Virus record (IMG/VR): IMGVR_UViG_3300047557_002709 | Span: 1 to 41,680 of that record | DNA from: a virus | DNA: 41,680 nucleotides | Reading direction: 5' to 3' (one strand) | Shown: positions 5,357 to 13,080 of the stretch, piece by piece | Layout of the letters: every line of letters starts with the position of its first letter | How positions within the stretch are numbered: position 1 is the stretch's first letter | Translations under genes and position numbers: made by a program | The notes under the pieces: model-generated | Told to the model about the DNA's origin: nothing | The model's database searches: none | The model's input: only the letters and a program-made list of their open reading frames with translations

Positions 5357-5381
5357 CACCTAAATAATAAATCACTATAAT
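5353..5381 (+). promoter_or_regulatory. Consensus sigma-70 promoter for the tmRNA
   Basis: A perfect -35 box TTGACA (5353-5358) and a perfect -10 box TATAAT (5376-5381), separated by 17 bases. The predicted start is about 5388, just before the tmRNA acceptor piece. The -35 box contains the stop codon of the upstream nuclease gene. A full-consensus promoter implies strong transcription by host RNA polymerase early in infection. Confidence 0.9.
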
Positions 5382-5387
5382 TATTTT

Positions 5388-5451
5388 ATGGTTGTATGAA
5401 GCAACTTGAAAAGTGTTCTGGACGTGGGTTCGACTCCCACCTGGTCCACCA
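5388..5451 (+). ncRNA. ssrA: Permuted tmRNA, acceptor (3'-type) piece
   Basis: This piece carries the tRNA-like 3' half of tmRNA, located upstream of the coding half. It has a T arm (GTGGG, loop TTCGACT, CCCAC) and an acceptor strand CTGGTCC (5441-5447) followed by A and an encoded CCA (5449-5451). The acceptor strand pairs with GGGCCAG at 5491-5497, the start of the coding piece, over 7 bp including one G-U. GTTGT (5391-5395) can pair with ACAAC (5533-5537) in the coding piece as part of the inter-piece helix H2. There is no anticodon arm, so it is not a tRNA. The 5' end is estimated from the promoter. Confidence 0.88.
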
Positions 5452-5490
5452 TAAGAGCATAAATTTACTTTGGTATTATGTTTTTATGAT

Positions 5491-5682
5491 GGGCCAGCCA
5501 TGGTTTCGACAGGGCAAAGAGTATAGAAGTGGACAACTAGGTAATGCAGAAGCCTTAAGGATGTGGGTTGTTCCCTTCCGAAGAAGCAAAACAAAGTAAA
5601 CGCAAACGATGAACGTTTCGCATTAGCAGCCTAAACACTGCTTAGGGTTTCGGTAGGTTTCCTCGTAACAGAATAACCTACC
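5491..5682 (+). ncRNA. ssrA: Permuted tmRNA, coding (5'-type) piece with tag ANDERFALAA
   Basis: It begins with the acceptor strand GGGCCAG and the conserved ATGGTTTCGAC element of tmRNA 5' ends. The tag frame runs from the resume codon GCA at 5602 to TAA at 5632-5634 and encodes ANDERFALAA, with the LAA end recognised by host proteases. The stop codon sits in a helix, CCTAA (5630-5634) with TTAGG (5642-5646), as in canonical tmRNA. A final perfect 8-bp hairpin pairs GGTAGGTT (5652-5659) with AACCTACC (5675-5682). The 39-base spacer at 5452-5490 would be removed to give a two-piece RNA. The role is ribosome rescue with SmpB. Confidence 0.9.
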
Positions 5683-5702
5683 ACAATTAAGAAAGGAAGA
5701 CA

Positions 5703-6260
5703 ATGCAAAGTAAACCAATACTTTTGAGCATAGTTTTTTCCGCATTTGTGATTTCTTTGGGTATGATAAATGTTGATCTTCATGGCTTATTGCCATTCAA
5801 AACATCTTATAACGAATTATCTAAAGATGTACAAAAACAAGTTACTTGTCTTGCGGAAAATATTTACTTTGAGGCTGCAAATGAGCCTCTAGATGGTAAA
5901 AAAGCAGTTGCTTTCGTAACCATTAATAGACTACAAACAGGAAATTATGCACACACAATTTGTGATGTGGTGTTTCAGAAAACAAATGGTACATGCCAAT
6001 TCTCTTGGTATTGTGATCCAGAAGTTTTGAGAAAACGCTTGACAATTCGTGAAACTGCATTGTATAATGAAATTCGTGAATTAGCAACGCATATGGTTGT
6101 TAATTACGAACGCATGAAAGATGTTACTCATGGAGCGACATACTATCATGCAGACTATGTGAATCCTGGTTGGAAGTTAAGAAAAGTGGATCAAATTGGT
6201 CGACACATTTTTTACAAGAGCAACAAGGATAATATTGACAGAAACAAGGAGATTATATGA
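5703..6260 (+). CDS. SleB-type cell-wall hydrolase with N-terminal membrane/signal segment
   Basis: A peptidoglycan hydrolase of the SleB/Hydrolase_2 family. Residues 1-26 form a hydrophobic signal or signal-anchor segment. The catalytic domain starts at about residue 45 with LAENIYFEAANEP (E52 and E57, the likely catalytic glutamate region), then KKAVAFVTINR, and ends near ATYYHADYVNPGW. With its membrane segment it could act as an endolysin exported by the host Sec system or as a signal-arrest-release endolysin. The start has a good upstream AAGGA (5694-5698). It overlaps the next gene, which encodes a small membrane protein, by 4 bases, which suggests a lysis module. It is probably co-transcribed with the tmRNA because no terminator is evident between them. 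Confidence 0.87.
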   Translation: MQSKPILLSIVFSAFVISLGMINVDLHGLLPFKTSYNELSKDVQKQVTCLAENIYFEAANEPLDGKKAVAFVTINRLQTGNYAHTICDVVFQKTNGTCQFSWYCDPEVLRKRLTIRETALYNEIRELATHMVVNYERMKDVTHGATYYHADYVNPGWKLRKVDQIGRHIFYKSNKDNIDRNKEII

Positions 6261-8320: not shown

Positions 8321-9811
8321 TTAGACCACACGAACTGAATTGTAAATCATTCTTTGGAATGTTGCATCTAAGTTTCTAACAGCAGGCATAATTCGTAAAG
8401 CATCAGACACCATATTTCTTGGTGCGGCCTCTACGGCTTTATTAATTACTGGCGGAGATACCGCCATTCTTTGATCTGCATTCATTTGTGCATTCTCTTG
8501 AATTGCATCAGACACGGGAGGTTCTGAAGTAACCGGAGTTGATCTTCTTCCTGCACTTGGATATGTGCCAAATGCAGCACCTTGTGGTGTTTGTTGGCGA
8601 ATGTAATCATCATATTGCATAGAGCTACGGCCTTCAGATGGTCTTATATCTGGTGGCAAAGGCATTTGACCTGGCTTTAAGCTCTTTAAAGTTCCGTCTG
8701 GATTATATCTACTAGCAAATCTGGTATCCCATCCAGCTGGACCACCCTGTTCTCTTGGCCATTTATCTCTAGGTGTTATTGTTTCCTCTTGTTGAATTGG
8801 GCCTTCGCGGCGAAGTGGCTCAGCCAACTTACTGTATTCTTCTCTTTCTTTCGGCGTTAAATCTAAATTATCAAGTGCATATTGAGCTTCTGCCATTTTG
8901 GTTCTGACAAATTCTTCCAATTTTTCTCTGCTGCCAAATTGTTTTTTCTTTGCAAAAGATTCTATATCGTATTCTGAACTTCTTTCTAAAACAGTTTTTG
9001 CTTCTATTGGACTGATGAGTGAATAGTCTGGCATTTGTTTTCTAACAAAATCTGTCAACCAATTACTAACCAAATCAGCCAAAAAAACACCTAAGGTAGC
9101 AAGAGCTGTTATACCAAGAAGTGCTAATCCTACTGGACTACCAAACCATGAAAGTATACTCATCAATTTACCTAATTGAAGAAGATTTTTTAAGTCAAGT
9201 ATTGATTGAACGACACTATCAATCATTTTTCTAATTGATGCAAAAGCAGAATTTAACATTTGACCAATTTTGCCAAATAATCCATCTTCTTGCTTTTCTG
9301 CTTTACTGACAACAACAGTTTTAACACCAAGAGCTTTCAGCAGTTGTCTATGTCTCTTTTCATCTTCCGCTTTTTGTTCTTCCGAAAAATCTTTTTCTTT
9401 ATCTTTTCGTTTTAAATCACTTTCATATATTTTACTCAAGAATCCATACATTTTTTCCAATATTGGCAATGTATCATCTGATTCTCTGACTCTACCAATT
9501 CTTGTATATGGATCAACAGGTTGTGCTCTACCGGCAAAGTAACGAATATCTTCATCACTACGACCAGCAAAACGACCATACAACGCAGCGGCAGTTCTTG
9601 AACCTCCTGTCATGAACTTAACAATATTCATGGGATCAAATTTTTCTTTGATACCCATGGCTCTTGCTTTCATTCTGGTTGAAATGCCATATTTTTCACG
9701 CAATGAACTCATAATTGCACTGCCGGCACTTTCACCCATCAAAGCTTTTTGCCTCATCAACTCAGTCAATGAGGGTAAATTTCTAAGTCTTCTAGCCTCT
9801 TGGTAGTTCAT
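8321..9811 (-). CDS. Tail/baseplate-associated helical protein with membrane segment (tape-measure candidate)
   Basis: 496 residues. Helical and highly charged from about 115 to 160. A very hydrophobic stretch at about 217-250 looks like one or two membrane-spanning helices. The C-terminal 150 residues are Pro/Gln/Arg-rich and probably disordered. Long helical proteins with a hydrophobic patch are typical of tape-measure or hub proteins that enter the host membrane during DNA delivery. It is the last gene of the minus operon containing gp4, gp26 and the glucosaminidase protein, and overlaps the preceding gene by 20 bases. T4 gp29 (tape measure, 590 aa) is the functional candidate, but I see no clear sequence match. 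Confidence 0.75.
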   Translation of the reverse strand: MNYQEARRLRNLPSLTELMRQKALMGESAGSAIMSSLREKYGISTRMKARAMGIKEKFDPMNIVKFMTGGSRTAAALYGRFAGRSDEDIRYFAGRAQPVDPYTRIGRVRESDDTLPILEKMYGFLSKIYESDLKRKDKEKDFSEEQKAEDEKRHRQLLKALGVKTVVVSKAEKQEDGLFGKIGQMLNSAFASIRKMIDSVVQSILDLKNLLQLGKLMSILSWFGSPVGLALLGITALATLGVFLADLVSNWLTDFVRKQMPDYSLISPIEAKTVLERSSEYDIESFAKKKQFGSREKLEEFVRTKMAEAQYALDNLDLTPKEREEYSKLAEPLRREGPIQQEETITPRDKWPREQGGPAGWDTRFASRYNPDGTLKSLKPGQMPLPPDIRPSEGRSSMQYDDYIRQQTPQGAAFGTYPSAGRRSTPVTSEPPVSDAIQENAQMNADQRMAVSPPVINKAVEAAPRNMVSDALRIMPAVRNLDATFQRMIYNSVRVV

Positions 9812-11636
9812 ATGCGTTTTGTCCTTTTGCTATTATAGCTGGTCGATCATTTTCTTCCATTAAGTTTGTTGATCGTCCTTGTGTATTTGTCTGTTGTGAT
9901 GTTCTTATATTTGTGGACTGTTGAGAATAGTTTCTACCTTCAACAGATGCCATCAATTGTGAATACTCATTAGACATTCCGTATAAATTGTTTCCAACAG
10001 AAGAAACATTTTTTTCTTTCATTAATTCATTTCTTCTAAATGTTTCTCTTTTCAACATTTCAATTTCACTTTTATTTTTTTCCAACAATTCCTGTATTGT
10101 TTTTCCAGCATTCGAACTCGTCATATATCCAGTTCCACCAGATTCAACAGAACCCAACAAATTTCCATATTCATATGGACTTGTTGCCTCACGAAGTCTT
10201 TGATATCTACTATTCGTTCCTATTAATTTTCCATATTGCTCCGCAAAATCTTTAAAATCTTTATAAGCCTTAAATTTAGACCATATTCTGACAAGTTTCA
10301 TACCGGGTTTCGTTGCTGGTGTTTTTCCATACCATTTCCAAGCATCAACCATTCCATGACCAGGTTTATTCATTTTGTCACCAAATTCGTAAGACTCGAC
10401 ATATTTTGTTCCTGGCCCGTTTGGTCCTTCGGCTTTTTTCCAGGTCTCTATTGTCGATGGAGTTGCAAATTCTTCTGTTAACTGCCATTCAAATTCTTCT
10501 CCTGGTTTTGCCGCAGCTTTTATCCCTCCATAATTAAATTTTGATGATAAGGCGCGACCATTTTTACTTTCTAATGCCCAATGTGCTGCAATGGCATCCG
10601 GCGACACTTTTCCTCCCATTTTTTCCGATGCTATTGCGGCGAAAGGTAACATAGTTGAAAAAAATGTCAAAAAAGCTTGATTTGCATTTTTTATTTCCGG
10701 AAAAACACCTCTAGGAGATATTCTTATATTTGCCGGCAATTCAGAAGGAATTTTAGTTGCAGTCGATGGTCTTTGTGTTGGTGGTGCTGGTTTAGTATCA
10801 ACCCTTCCAGTACCTCTTCCTGCTGTTGGTGGAGGTTCCGGTCTTTGTGTTGGTGGTGCTGGTTTAGTATCAACCCTTCCAGTACCTCTTCCTGCTGTTG
10901 GTGGAGGTTCCGGTCTTTGTGTTGGTGGTGCTGGTTTAGTATCAACCCTTCCAGTACCCCGGCCTGCTGTTAATGGAGGCTCTGGTCTTTGTACCGGTGG
11001 TGCTGGTTGTACCGGTGGTGCCTGTCTAGGAGGAACTTGTACCGGTGGTGATGGTTGTACCGGTGGTGCTGGTTGTACCGGTGGTGCCTGTCTAGGAGGA
11101 ACTTGTACCGGTGGTGCTTGAGTTGGTGCTGAAGGTCTAGGTGTTGGAACAGAAACCGGCGGTTTCGTTATAACAGGAGGTCTAAAAGGAGGAATTATTA
11201 TTCTTCCTGGCTTTTCAAGTTCTTTTTGTTTTTTTGTTTGTTTTATAACCGGCACCTGAATTTTTTTCTGGCGGCCAGTTATTGCCTTAATTATTTCATT
11301 ATTTCTTCTATCGTATTCTTTTTGTCTTAATTTTTCTAAATTATATCTTTCTTGTATGTCTATTTGTCTTTGATTTTCAATTTTAACCATTAGACCATAT
11401 ATTTCACCCAACGCTTCTTTAGGTGTTTCAAATCTTTTGTAAGATTCGGTTGAAACATCTTTTAAATTAGAAAGTGGATTTATTTTTGATTTTGTCTTCT
11501 CAGAAAAAGAATTTCTTTTATCTTCTGATATTGGTTTGGGTTCTGATTTATTTTGAGCAAAAGAATTTTTATCGCCAGATGAACTGTCGTTGCTTTGACC
11601 TAATATTTTTTTCTTTAGTGAACCGAGTATACTCAT
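9792..11636 (-). CDS. Proline-rich tail protein with glucosaminidase-like domain
   Basis: 614 residues. Residues 1-70 are polar and disordered, 72-125 form a charged helix, and 147-295 are a Pro/Gln/Arg-rich low-complexity region made of tandem repeats. From about 325 to 512 there is a domain resembling FlgJ/glucosaminidase (lysozyme-like) proteins: SPDAIAAHWALESKNGRA with the likely catalytic glutamate E356, then SKFNYGGIK. It probably cuts peptidoglycan during DNA injection. The phage gp5 homologue here lacks a lysozyme domain, so this protein may provide that activity. The ATG overlaps the stop of the frameshift ORF upstream (ATGA), the place where tape-measure genes sit in many phages. 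Confidence 0.82.
   Translation of the reverse strand: MSILGSLKKKILGQSNDSSSGDKNSFAQNKSEPKPISEDKRNSFSEKTKSKINPLSNLKDVSTESYKRFETPKEALGEIYGLMVKIENQRQIDIQERYNLEKLRQKEYDRRNNEIIKAITGRQKKIQVPVIKQTKKQKELEKPGRIIIPPFRPPVITKPPVSVPTPRPSAPTQAPPVQVPPRQAPPVQPAPPVQPSPPVQVPPRQAPPVQPAPPVQRPEPPLTAGRGTGRVDTKPAPPTQRPEPPPTAGRGTGRVDTKPAPPTQRPEPPPTAGRGTGRVDTKPAPPTQRPSTATKIPSELPANIRISPRGVFPEIKNANQAFLTFFSTMLPFAAIASEKMGGKVSPDAIAAHWALESKNGRALSSKFNYGGIKAAAKPGEEFEWQLTEEFATPSTIETWKKAEGPNGPGTKYVESYEFGDKMNKPGHGMVDAWKWYGKTPATKPGMKLVRIWSKFKAYKDFKDFAEQYGKLIGTNSRYQRLREATSPYEYGNLLGSVESGGTGYMTSSNAGKTIQELLEKNKSEIEMLKRETFRRNELMKEKNVSSVGNNLYGMSNEYSQLMASVEGRNYSQQSTNIRTSQQTNTQGRSTNLMEENDRPAIIAKGQNAYELPRG
10768..10983 (-). repeat. Tandem 72-bp repeats coding Pro-rich/Gly-Arg segments
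   Basis: Three tandem copies of a 72-bp unit start at 10768, 10840 and 10912. The first two are almost identical; the third has drifted at its distal end. They encode 24-residue units with cores PAPPTQRPEPPP and TAGRGTGRVDTK (residues about 219-290 of the glucosaminidase protein). The period is a multiple of three, so copy-number change would keep the frame. Confidence 0.9.
10990..11125 (-). repeat. Second Pro-rich repeat block
   Basis: Repeats built around TGTACCGGTGGTG and TGTCTAGGAGGAACTTG (read on the + strand). They encode PPVQ, PAPPVQ and PPRQAPPVQ units on the minus strand (residues about 172-216). Together with the 72-bp block this gives a flexible linker of about 150 residues ahead of the peptidoglycan-hydrolase domain. 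Confidence 0.8.
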
Positions 11637-11830
11637 CTACTTTTCATTTTTTCTTTTATTCTACGATTTTCTTCCTCAATATACTGCATTAACATTGTGA
11701 TATAAATGTCTCTTTCCCACGGTATCATATTTTCAAGTTCCGTGAGAGAATACTTATGGTGTTGTATCAAAGAGAAATTAGTTTTATAGTAATTTCTCAA
11801 ACTATCATGACGAAATATTAATCGAAAAAA
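11633..11830 (-). CDS. Hidden -1 frame ORF downstream of gp26 (tail/baseplate assembly chaperone-like)
   Basis: A frame open from the end of gp26 to a TGA at 11635-11633, not preceded by any ATG until its middle. From the slippery site it adds 63 residues. The conserved-looking part runs NFSLIQHHKYSLTELENM, then IPWERDIYITMLMQYIEEEN and a basic tail. Trp-Glu-Arg plus a hydrophobic helix is typical of the small second components of tail-assembly chaperones. It overlaps the next gene by ATGA, so it is translated into it. Expected product: a gp26 fusion of 302 residues made by -1 frameshifting. T4 has gp51 at this place in gene order, but I cannot show homology. Confidence 0.72.
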   Translation of the reverse strand, partial: FFRLIFRHDSLRNYYKTNFSLIQHHKYSLTELENMIPWERDIYITMLMQYIEEENRRIKEKMKSR

Positions 11831-12540
11831 CTTTCTAGGCCTTCCACATCAATTTTGTGTTCAAAGCCACACTTACTGCATTTTATGTCAACAGTTTCTC
11901 TTAGTCTAGGTAAATTATTGAAAAATAGTTCCAACTTAGAAAATTGTTCTTGATTTAACGATTCAATAAAATCAACCTTTTCTTCCAAACTAACCTCATG
12001 GCCATAATAGTATTGTTCACCATCATAAATGTGGTCAATTGATTGTGCTACCATATTGAAAGTCAATTCACTTGCATCTTCATGATTAAGTGAATCTCGC
12101 ACCATTGAAAATTGTGGATATTTCATTTTCATGGTTATTGTATCCGTTAATTTAATTTCGGGATCAATATTCTCTTTCATGTCAACTTGCATATCTAACA
12201 AATTGACTTTACTTTCCATCAAATTACCACATTCTTTACCTTCAACCTCATTATTACAACGATATTTCGATTCAACAACTTCACCAACAGATTTGGCTCT
12301 CAAATTAATGAAATAATATTCTATGTCAATGACAGGCAAATCATCCACATTAATTTCGGATAAAGTACAATTAATTAAAACATCTCTAATCGCATTGTAA
12401 ACAGAAGATGAATCTTGTGCTTCAATGGCCATTAATAAATTCTTCTGTTCTTTGACTAAAAATGGCCTAAATTTAATTTTCTTTTTTGATACTGGCAAAA
12501 CAATTTCATATGTTGGCACATCAATTTTTGGTAACGGCAT
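11818..12540 (-). CDS. 26: Baseplate hub assembly protein, T4 gp26-like
   Basis: 240 residues of the T4_baseplate (gp26) family; the T4 protein has 208. The N-terminal half includes a KFRPFLVKEQKNLLMA motif typical of the family. There are two cysteine pairs (YRCNN...ECGN and KCSKCGFEH), which could form a zinc ribbon. The C-terminus ends in ESFFD over a slippery sequence. The protein assists building of the central baseplate hub and may act as an assembly chaperone rather than a structural part. It is followed by the hidden -1 frame ORF. Confidence 0.88.
   Translation of the reverse strand: MPLPKIDVPTYEIVLPVSKKKIKFRPFLVKEQKNLLMAIEAQDSSSVYNAIRDVLINCTLSEINVDDLPVIDIEYYFINLRAKSVGEVVESKYRCNNEVEGKECGNLMESKVNLLDMQVDMKENIDPEIKLTDTITMKMKYPQFSMVRDSLNHEDASELTFNMVAQSIDHIYDGEQYYYGHEVSLEEKVDFIESLNQEQFSKLELFFNNLPRLRETVDIKCSKCGFEHKIDVEGLESFFD
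11824..11830 (-). promoter_or_regulatory. Putative -1 ribosomal frameshift site T TTT TTC
   Basis: On the minus strand the gp26 codons AGT TTT TTC GAT TAA include the heptamer T TTT TTC (11830-11824), which fits the X XXY YYZ slippery pattern in the zero frame. It lies two codons before the gp26 stop. A -1 slip enters the open frame ending at 11633. Frameshifting of this type between tail-assembly chaperone genes is well established in tailed phages. No stimulatory structure was identified by eye. Confidence 0.65.
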
Positions 12541-12552
12541 AATAACTCCTCA

Positions 12553-13080
12553 TTAATAATTTCTATTTGGTTCCCATCTGGTGTAAGCAAAAGTAACCAT
12601 CAGTCTATGATAATCATCGGAACTCCAGTCAAGTGACAACTGGTTTACCGATAAAGGATATGATTCAATTAATTTTACAGAATAAGACAAAACATCTGAC
12701 ATATCATATTGACTTATGATAATGTCGCAACAGTAGTCAGCCTTGTATCTATAGTTATTCGTTGAAAGTGGTGTAATATACTCCATCCAGTTATCAAAAA
12801 ACACTTTTTGACGCATATCATCTTCAATAATAAATGTTAAATCAATATCATTGAACATTGTCAAATATGGAAATTTTTCCACAGGTCCATATGTTTTTTG
12901 TTCAGTTGTTGCAAGAGCTCGTCCAGGCAATTCTGCGGCCTGACATTTATACACCAAATCTCTTGCATTTACACCCATGAAAGGTAAATTTGCAGGTGTC
13001 ACAATTCTCACATCAAACCTACTTGCCTTGGCTGGATCATACTTAAACGAAGATTTAAATCCTTGTATATTTGAAGCCAT
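12553..13080 (-). CDS. Tail-tube-family protein (gp19/gp54-like)
   Basis: 175 residues with the pattern of the T4 gp19 tail-tube fold: SRFDVRIVTP, then YKCQAAELPGRAL (in gp19, FQCKATALPA), a long middle with FPYLTMFNDIDLTF and a final LSLDWSSDDY...VTFAYTRW (gp19: LQLDWDSNNE). Its place between gp26 and gp4, away from a sheath gene, suggests a baseplate tube initiator (gp54 role) or a second tube protein rather than the major tube. The true gp19 is presumably outside this window. Confidence 0.8.
   Translation of the reverse strand: MASNIQGFKSSFKYDPAKASRFDVRIVTPANLPFMGVNARDLVYKCQAAELPGRALATTEQKTYGPVEKFPYLTMFNDIDLTFIIEDDMRQKVFFDNWMEYITPLSTNNYRYKADYCCDIIISQYDMSDVLSYSVKLIESYPLSVNQLSLDWSSDDYHRLMVTFAYTRWEPNRNY

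Follow-up and report, generated by a model that had tools for sequence, protein, structure and literature searches.

The question raised by the locus described here is how gp51 is expressed when its reading frame has no evident start. The locus lies in the window (the whole stretch of DNA analysed, from an uncultured T4-like phage, 41,680 nt, positions 1 to 41,680 of IMG/VR virus record IMGVR_UViG_3300047557_002709), where a T4-like gp26 gene is followed in the -1 frame by an open reading frame (ORF) that overlaps its end. From the sequence of the window and its relatives, gp26 and gp51 very probably form one translational unit, in which a -1 slip would give a gp26-gp51 fusion resembling the long form of a tail assembly chaperone (TAC). 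The elements of the locus are:

11818..12540, minus strand: gp26 short form (TAC-N-like), 240 aa; Pfam PF12322 T4_baseplate, E 1.5e-59; PHROG_150, E 1.7e-64
11824..11830, minus strand: slippery heptamer T TTT TTC, 0-frame codons (AG)T TTT TTC; from the sequence and its conservation
11818..11820, minus strand: gp26 0-frame stop codon TAA, 3 bases past the heptamer; from the sequence
11633..11824, minus strand: -1 extension of 63 codons plus stop, the gp51 domain (TAC-C-like); PHROG_634, E 5e-28
11633..11636, minus strand: ATGA overlap of the gp51-frame stop and the start of the next gene; from the sequence and the ORF list

The 3′ end of gp26 reads, on the minus strand, GAA GGC CTA GAA AGT TTT TTC GAT TAA. 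After a -1 slip on the heptamer the first codon would be CGA (11824-11822), and the frame is closed by TGA (11635-11633), so that the predicted fusion comprises gp26 residues 1-239 and the -1 extension, 302 aa in all. A previous sequence-only reading of this DNA had proposed that the slip opens 63 codons ending in the ATGA overlap, and that this frame has no early ATG, its conserved-looking part starting before the first Met. Both proposals were borne out: the first ATG, GTG or TTG in the frame is a TTG at 11800, and the conserved part, FFRLIFRHDSLRNYYKTNFSL, begins upstream of it. The nearest -1 stop before the heptamer is a TGA at 11851-11849, which confines the slip to a stretch of ten codons; the permissible stretch is reduced to four codons in some relatives, with the heptamer still inside it. 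We dropped the rarity of the heptamer as an argument, as there are 31 copies in the AT-rich window compared with 30 expected. It is the position and conservation of the heptamer, not its mere presence, that exceed chance.

The hidden frame is gp51 and hence not a new ORF. In profile searches it matched PHROG_634 (E 5e-28), whose annotation is 'baseplate hub assembly catalyst'. A second match, to columns 235-277 at the C-terminal end of the PHROG_150 profile for gp26 (E 2.5e-6), arises because some proteins of that family hold both parts in one frame. The ORF downstream of the slip is kept as a protein in every relative with a complete locus.

TTTTTTC was found at the same place, alongside a conserved -1 ORF, in all 80 of the closest relatives (viral contigs of 63-82% identity, one of which, L060, is truncated by its contig end), and in 165 of the 173 loci surveyed across viral contigs, a second scan and isolates. 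Codon choice was examined in 104 of the 165 heptamer loci, those left at <90% nucleotide identity; these representatives were chosen for carrying the heptamer, a choice that excluded only eight loci. All 104 use TTT and then TTC for the Phe-Phe pair at the site, and the preceding codon, which specifies four amino acids, always ends in T (AGT 58, TCT 33, AAT 7, GGT 3 and GAT 3). In the same representatives both Phe codons occur at the other conserved Phe positions of gp26 (for example 76:27 and 63:41, the strongest bias being 98:3), and at a second Phe-Phe pair within gp26 not one of 103 is written T TTT TTC.

The heptamer is retained at 27-41% identity in S-SM2, P-SSM4, P-SSM5, KVP40 and Stenotrophomonas Ps15, and T TTT TTC or T TTT TT(G/T) occurs in phages of Pelagibacter, Vibrio, Aeromonas, Pseudomonas, Stenotrophomonas and rhizobia. 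In Sinorhizobium phiM9 and Rhizobium AF3 the site is T TTT TTG, so that the second residue becomes Leu and the six T are retained; in phiN3 it is T TTT TTT. Among the heptamer-carrying representatives the short form thus has a conserved in-phase X XXY YYZ site close to its end (104/104), with T TTT TTN in the distant phages. Invariant codons at the site, together with these variants, indicate that selection acts on the nucleotides and not on Phe-Phe alone. The heptamer, whose loss from related phages would have spoken against the sequence-only reading, is therefore conserved well beyond what the protein needs. The gp26 stop is less fixed in position: it follows the heptamer immediately in Milchi and MA10, while in Pelagibacter phage Mosig (L183, 1500-1570) it stands 31 nt from the heptamer start rather than 10. 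Mosig gp26 ends about 21 nt farther on than in its relatives with heptamer and -1 frame intact, and the annotated Mosig gp51 start is probably wrong.

An independent start for gp51 was sought in the 28 representatives of the window clade. Their first -1-frame ATG lies +50 to +92 nt past the gp26 stop, within the conserved domain. In 9 of the 28 the first start is instead a TTG at +20, and a Shine-Dalgarno (SD)-like 4-mer ahead of the first possible -1-frame start is absent from all 28. A conserved start with a Shine-Dalgarno sequence, which the sequence-only reading had named as grounds for refutation, was thus present in none of them. For this clade the pattern of start codons leaves frameshifting as the sole plausible route to gp51.

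The eight loci without the heptamer belong to T4-type phages, which carry gene 51 elsewhere, to Ackermannviridae and to one Vibrio phage. In five T4-type phages gp26 is followed by gp25, and another gene (gene 51 in T4) is on the opposite strand. Where the C-terminal Phe-Phe is kept in T4-type gp26 with no gp51 behind it, it is encoded by the non-slippery TTC TTT. T4 gp51 consists of a PF12322 domain over residues 1-201 (E 4.2e-55; T4 gp26 itself matches PF12322 at E 8.8e-64) and about 48 further aa, and it matches PHROG_150 along its entire length, the extension included. When 102 predicted frameshift products were combined into a profile, it aligned with T4-type gp51 over 245 columns (E 7.6e-19) and was free of gaps at the junction (ESFF/RLIFRHDSL in the window, DVF/KLLVNPDEI in T4). 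Since gp26 alone also matched the N-terminal part of T4 gp51 (E 9.4e-13), and T4 gp26 matched T4 gp51 (E 4.5e-14), the two T4 proteins are paralogues, representing the short and long forms as two genes. T4 gp51 is thus a gp26 paralogue bearing the same C-terminal extension as the window fusion, but in T4 the forms are encoded by two genes on opposite strands, one frame each, and T4 gp26 lacks the slippery site, its Phe-Phe being written TTC TTT, which makes T4 a natural control. As a separate observation, -1 ORFs that follow gp26 without a canonical heptamer lie at 2729-2899 of L087, at 2648-2932 of L091 and in L093 (Ackermannviridae and Vibrio K351); that of Maynard matched PHROG_634 weakly (E 0.0026).

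A locus that encodes a short protein together with a long form extended at its C-terminus, and for whose fusion T4 gp51 is a single-frame homologue, recalls the lambda tail assembly chaperones G and GT. The position of the gene is also alike, as the window short form, with its -1 extension at the gene end, stands directly after a tail tube gene:

12553..13080, minus strand: tail tube protein gene, directly upstream of gp26; PHROG_45, E 2.5e-40; Pfam Phage_TTP_2, E 5.8e-8

Unlike G, gp26 is larger (240 aa), belongs to the separate family PF12322 and has T TTT TTC as its site; the slippery site of lambda is G GGA AAG. AlphaFold2 models had a mean pLDDT of 84.8 for window gp26 and 82.9 for T4-type gp51, and showed a similar order of secondary structure, with extra C-terminal helices in gp51. 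Residues 1-87 of the gp26 model were closest to YqbN (3KLU, Z 6.8) and to the HK97 tail assembly chaperone (2OB9, Z 6.7), with the next unrelated structure at Z 2.9; these chaperone Z values are middling and concern the N-terminal domain only. Foldseek alone gave the gp26 model a probability of 0.60 and E 1.5 against 2OB9, and found no meaningful match for the T4 gp51 model in the PDB; sequence searches of gp26 and gp51 against PDB chains found no significant match. The models thus suggest that the N-terminal domain of gp26 has the same fold as 2OB9 and 3KLU, which supports the chaperone analogy that the sequence-only reading had drawn. T4 gp51 is reported to be needed for assembly yet missing from the particle, and a listing of hub assembly chaperones includes both gp26 and gp51 (PMC3004832).

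The following mechanism very probably accounts for these data. The majority of ribosomes would stop at the gp26 TAA, yielding the 240-aa short form, and a fraction would slip by -1 on T TTT TTC, both Phe tRNAs re-pairing on TTT, bypass the stop and read 63 further codons to yield the 302-aa fusion. If the parallel with lambda G/GT holds, the tape measure protein would be coated by the short form and supplied with tail tube subunits by the long form, in which case the ratio of short to long form, set by the rate of slipping, would control tail assembly.

Several observations weigh against this interpretation. Folding of the RNA past the site, a check that the sequence-only reading had suggested, disclosed no conserved downstream structure: RNAalifold returned an empty structure downstream of the site for the 28 window-like and the 76 other representatives, with no conserved stem or pseudoknot, and sliding-window z-scores showed nothing special past the slip site. 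An upstream element is a candidate stimulator, on weak evidence:

11840..11845, minus strand: GGAAGG, SD-like, 9 nt before the heptamer

Most representatives have an SD-like GAGG, GAAGG or GGG 8-10 nt before the heptamer, a spacing that resembles that of dnaX. Codon choice is strongly biased towards this element in the cyanophage group (GAG p 2e-15, GGG p 1e-5); the window clade shows just a mild enrichment of GGG (p 0.001). The element is confounded with a conserved Glu-Gly, which leaves its role as stimulator merely suggestive. A canonical heptamer is missing beside the -1 ORF of the Ackermannviridae phages Maynard and Kuja and of Vibrio K351, and a search by sequence for the tape measure gene in the window gave weak leads only and no confident identification. 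Finally, many cyanophages, KVP40, Ps15 and Rhizobium phages have an ATG at or just past the gp26 stop (TAATG/TGATG), from which reinitiation could yield free gp51.

This last point is the basis of the main alternative, in which termination-reinitiation or a non-AUG start yields gp51 as a free protein and the T-rich site merely encodes Phe-Phe. Annotations of cyanophages and KVP40 do assign gp51 its own ATG, and the restart motifs TAATG or TGATG stand at the gp26 stop of KVP40, Ps15, phiM9 and AF3, where they may add free gp51. The window clade, however, has neither an ATG before the conserved part nor a Shine-Dalgarno sequence, and the TTG at +20 serves only 9 of the 28. Many, but not all, cyanophages have an ATG at +5 or +14; its position shifts from phage to phage, and L146 and L153 have no early ATG, whereas the heptamer is constant. 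The synonymous choice at the site is invariant, unlike that at the other Phe-Phe pair, and phiM9 and AF3 drop the second Phe yet retain the six T. On this balance we consider free gp51 an improbable substitute for the fusion.

Mixed frames might instead arise by transcriptional slippage on the six-T run, since a homopolymer is a possible site of RNA polymerase slippage and the run in phiN3 reaches at least 7 T. Six T are short for polymerase slippage, however, and the motif is codon-phased (T TTT TTC/G), a C or G ending the run after six T in nearly all lineages; a run broken in this way fits tandem re-pairing of two tRNAs. Six-T runs also occur elsewhere in gp26 in 40 of the 104 representatives and are unconserved there. 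A transcriptional origin is highly unlikely. Assembly errors commonly break frames in AT-rich runs, which could suggest that the -1 ORF is a decayed gene or one split by a sequencing error, but 165 loci and many finished isolate genomes share the arrangement with both frames conserved; the survey refutes this explanation, to which we attach next to no probability.

Ribosomal frameshifting at the end of gp26 has precedents. It is reportedly conserved in several T4-like groups, with T4 using separate genes 26 and 51. As passages in PMC10885494 and PMC12846349 indicate, the T4-like tail assembly chaperones were identified in 2022 (Vladimirov, Gautam and Davidson, Virology 2022, 566:9-15, doi 10.1016/j.virol.2021.11.003), and the genes are the same as in the window. 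PMC12846349 refers to that study for poly-T slippery sequences, an established -1 signal within the TAC-N genes of T4-like phages, and PMC10885494 refers to it for some T4-like phages in which a short gene is accompanied by a second, long fusion gene and frameshifting is not used. The sequence-only reading had concluded that gp26 of T4-like phages may act as a chaperone-type protein that also exists in a longer, frameshifted form. This was right in its frameshift and chaperone logic but, as these passages indicate, not new: the principle is already published, and the window is a convincing new example. The window clade adds a further case, in which gp51 is without any start codon. Possibly new are this clade, where gp51 would be reached by the slip alone, and the set of intermediate states. 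In cyanophages and marine vibriophages gp51 has been noted to lack its first ~200 residues (Sullivan et al. 2010, PMC3037559). The short ORF is the same, but there it was seen as a shortened gene and here the missing part would come from gp26 by the slip, so that the gp26-gp51 fusion would explain the ~200 missing N-terminal residues.

We see about even chances that the slip has become obligatory in the window clade, where no start is left, that other T4-like lineages are intermediate (a slippery site with TAATG/TGATG, or a displaced stop), and that T4 exchanged the slip for a duplication of the gene. If so, the gp26/gp51 family would offer a natural series for a programmed frameshift being lost or made obligatory. 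The arrangement also indicates how gp51 may be expressed across a large marine and freshwater group of T4-like phages. Annotations of these phages either show gp51 as a short orphan gene whose start is doubtful or omit it, and annotation pipelines should merge both frames. It supports the view of the T4 gene 26/gene 51 pair, long called hub protein and assembly catalyst, as the split form of a frameshifted chaperone.

With the tail tube gene upstream of gp26, the downstream genes are tail-like, the tape measure being weakly indicated:

9792..11636, minus strand: next gene, 614 aa, candidate tail/hub protein; PHROG_3513, E 1.8e-12; Pfam Glucosaminidase, E 2.3e-5, below the curated cutoff
8321..9811, minus strand: 496-aa protein, weak candidate for the tape measure or part of it; PHROG_3981 tape measure, E 0.027

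The 614-aa protein (9792..11636) combines a proline-rich linker containing repeats with a glucosaminidase-like domain. Three near-identical 24-codon proline-rich repeats, PAPPTQRPEPPPTAGRGTGRVDTK, lie at 10724-10990 on the minus strand, ahead of that domain. The 496-aa protein had a weak BLASTP match (E 3e-4, in a single comparison) to the S-SM2 gene after gp51. Outside the tail genes, we also noted a phage-borne tmRNA gene at 5359-5725 on the plus strand, called tmRNA* by ARAGORN with the tag ANDERFALAA and matching two Rfam families above their gathering score, beta_tmRNA (RF01850) with 122.4 bits and permuted tmRNA (RF04321) with 120.8.

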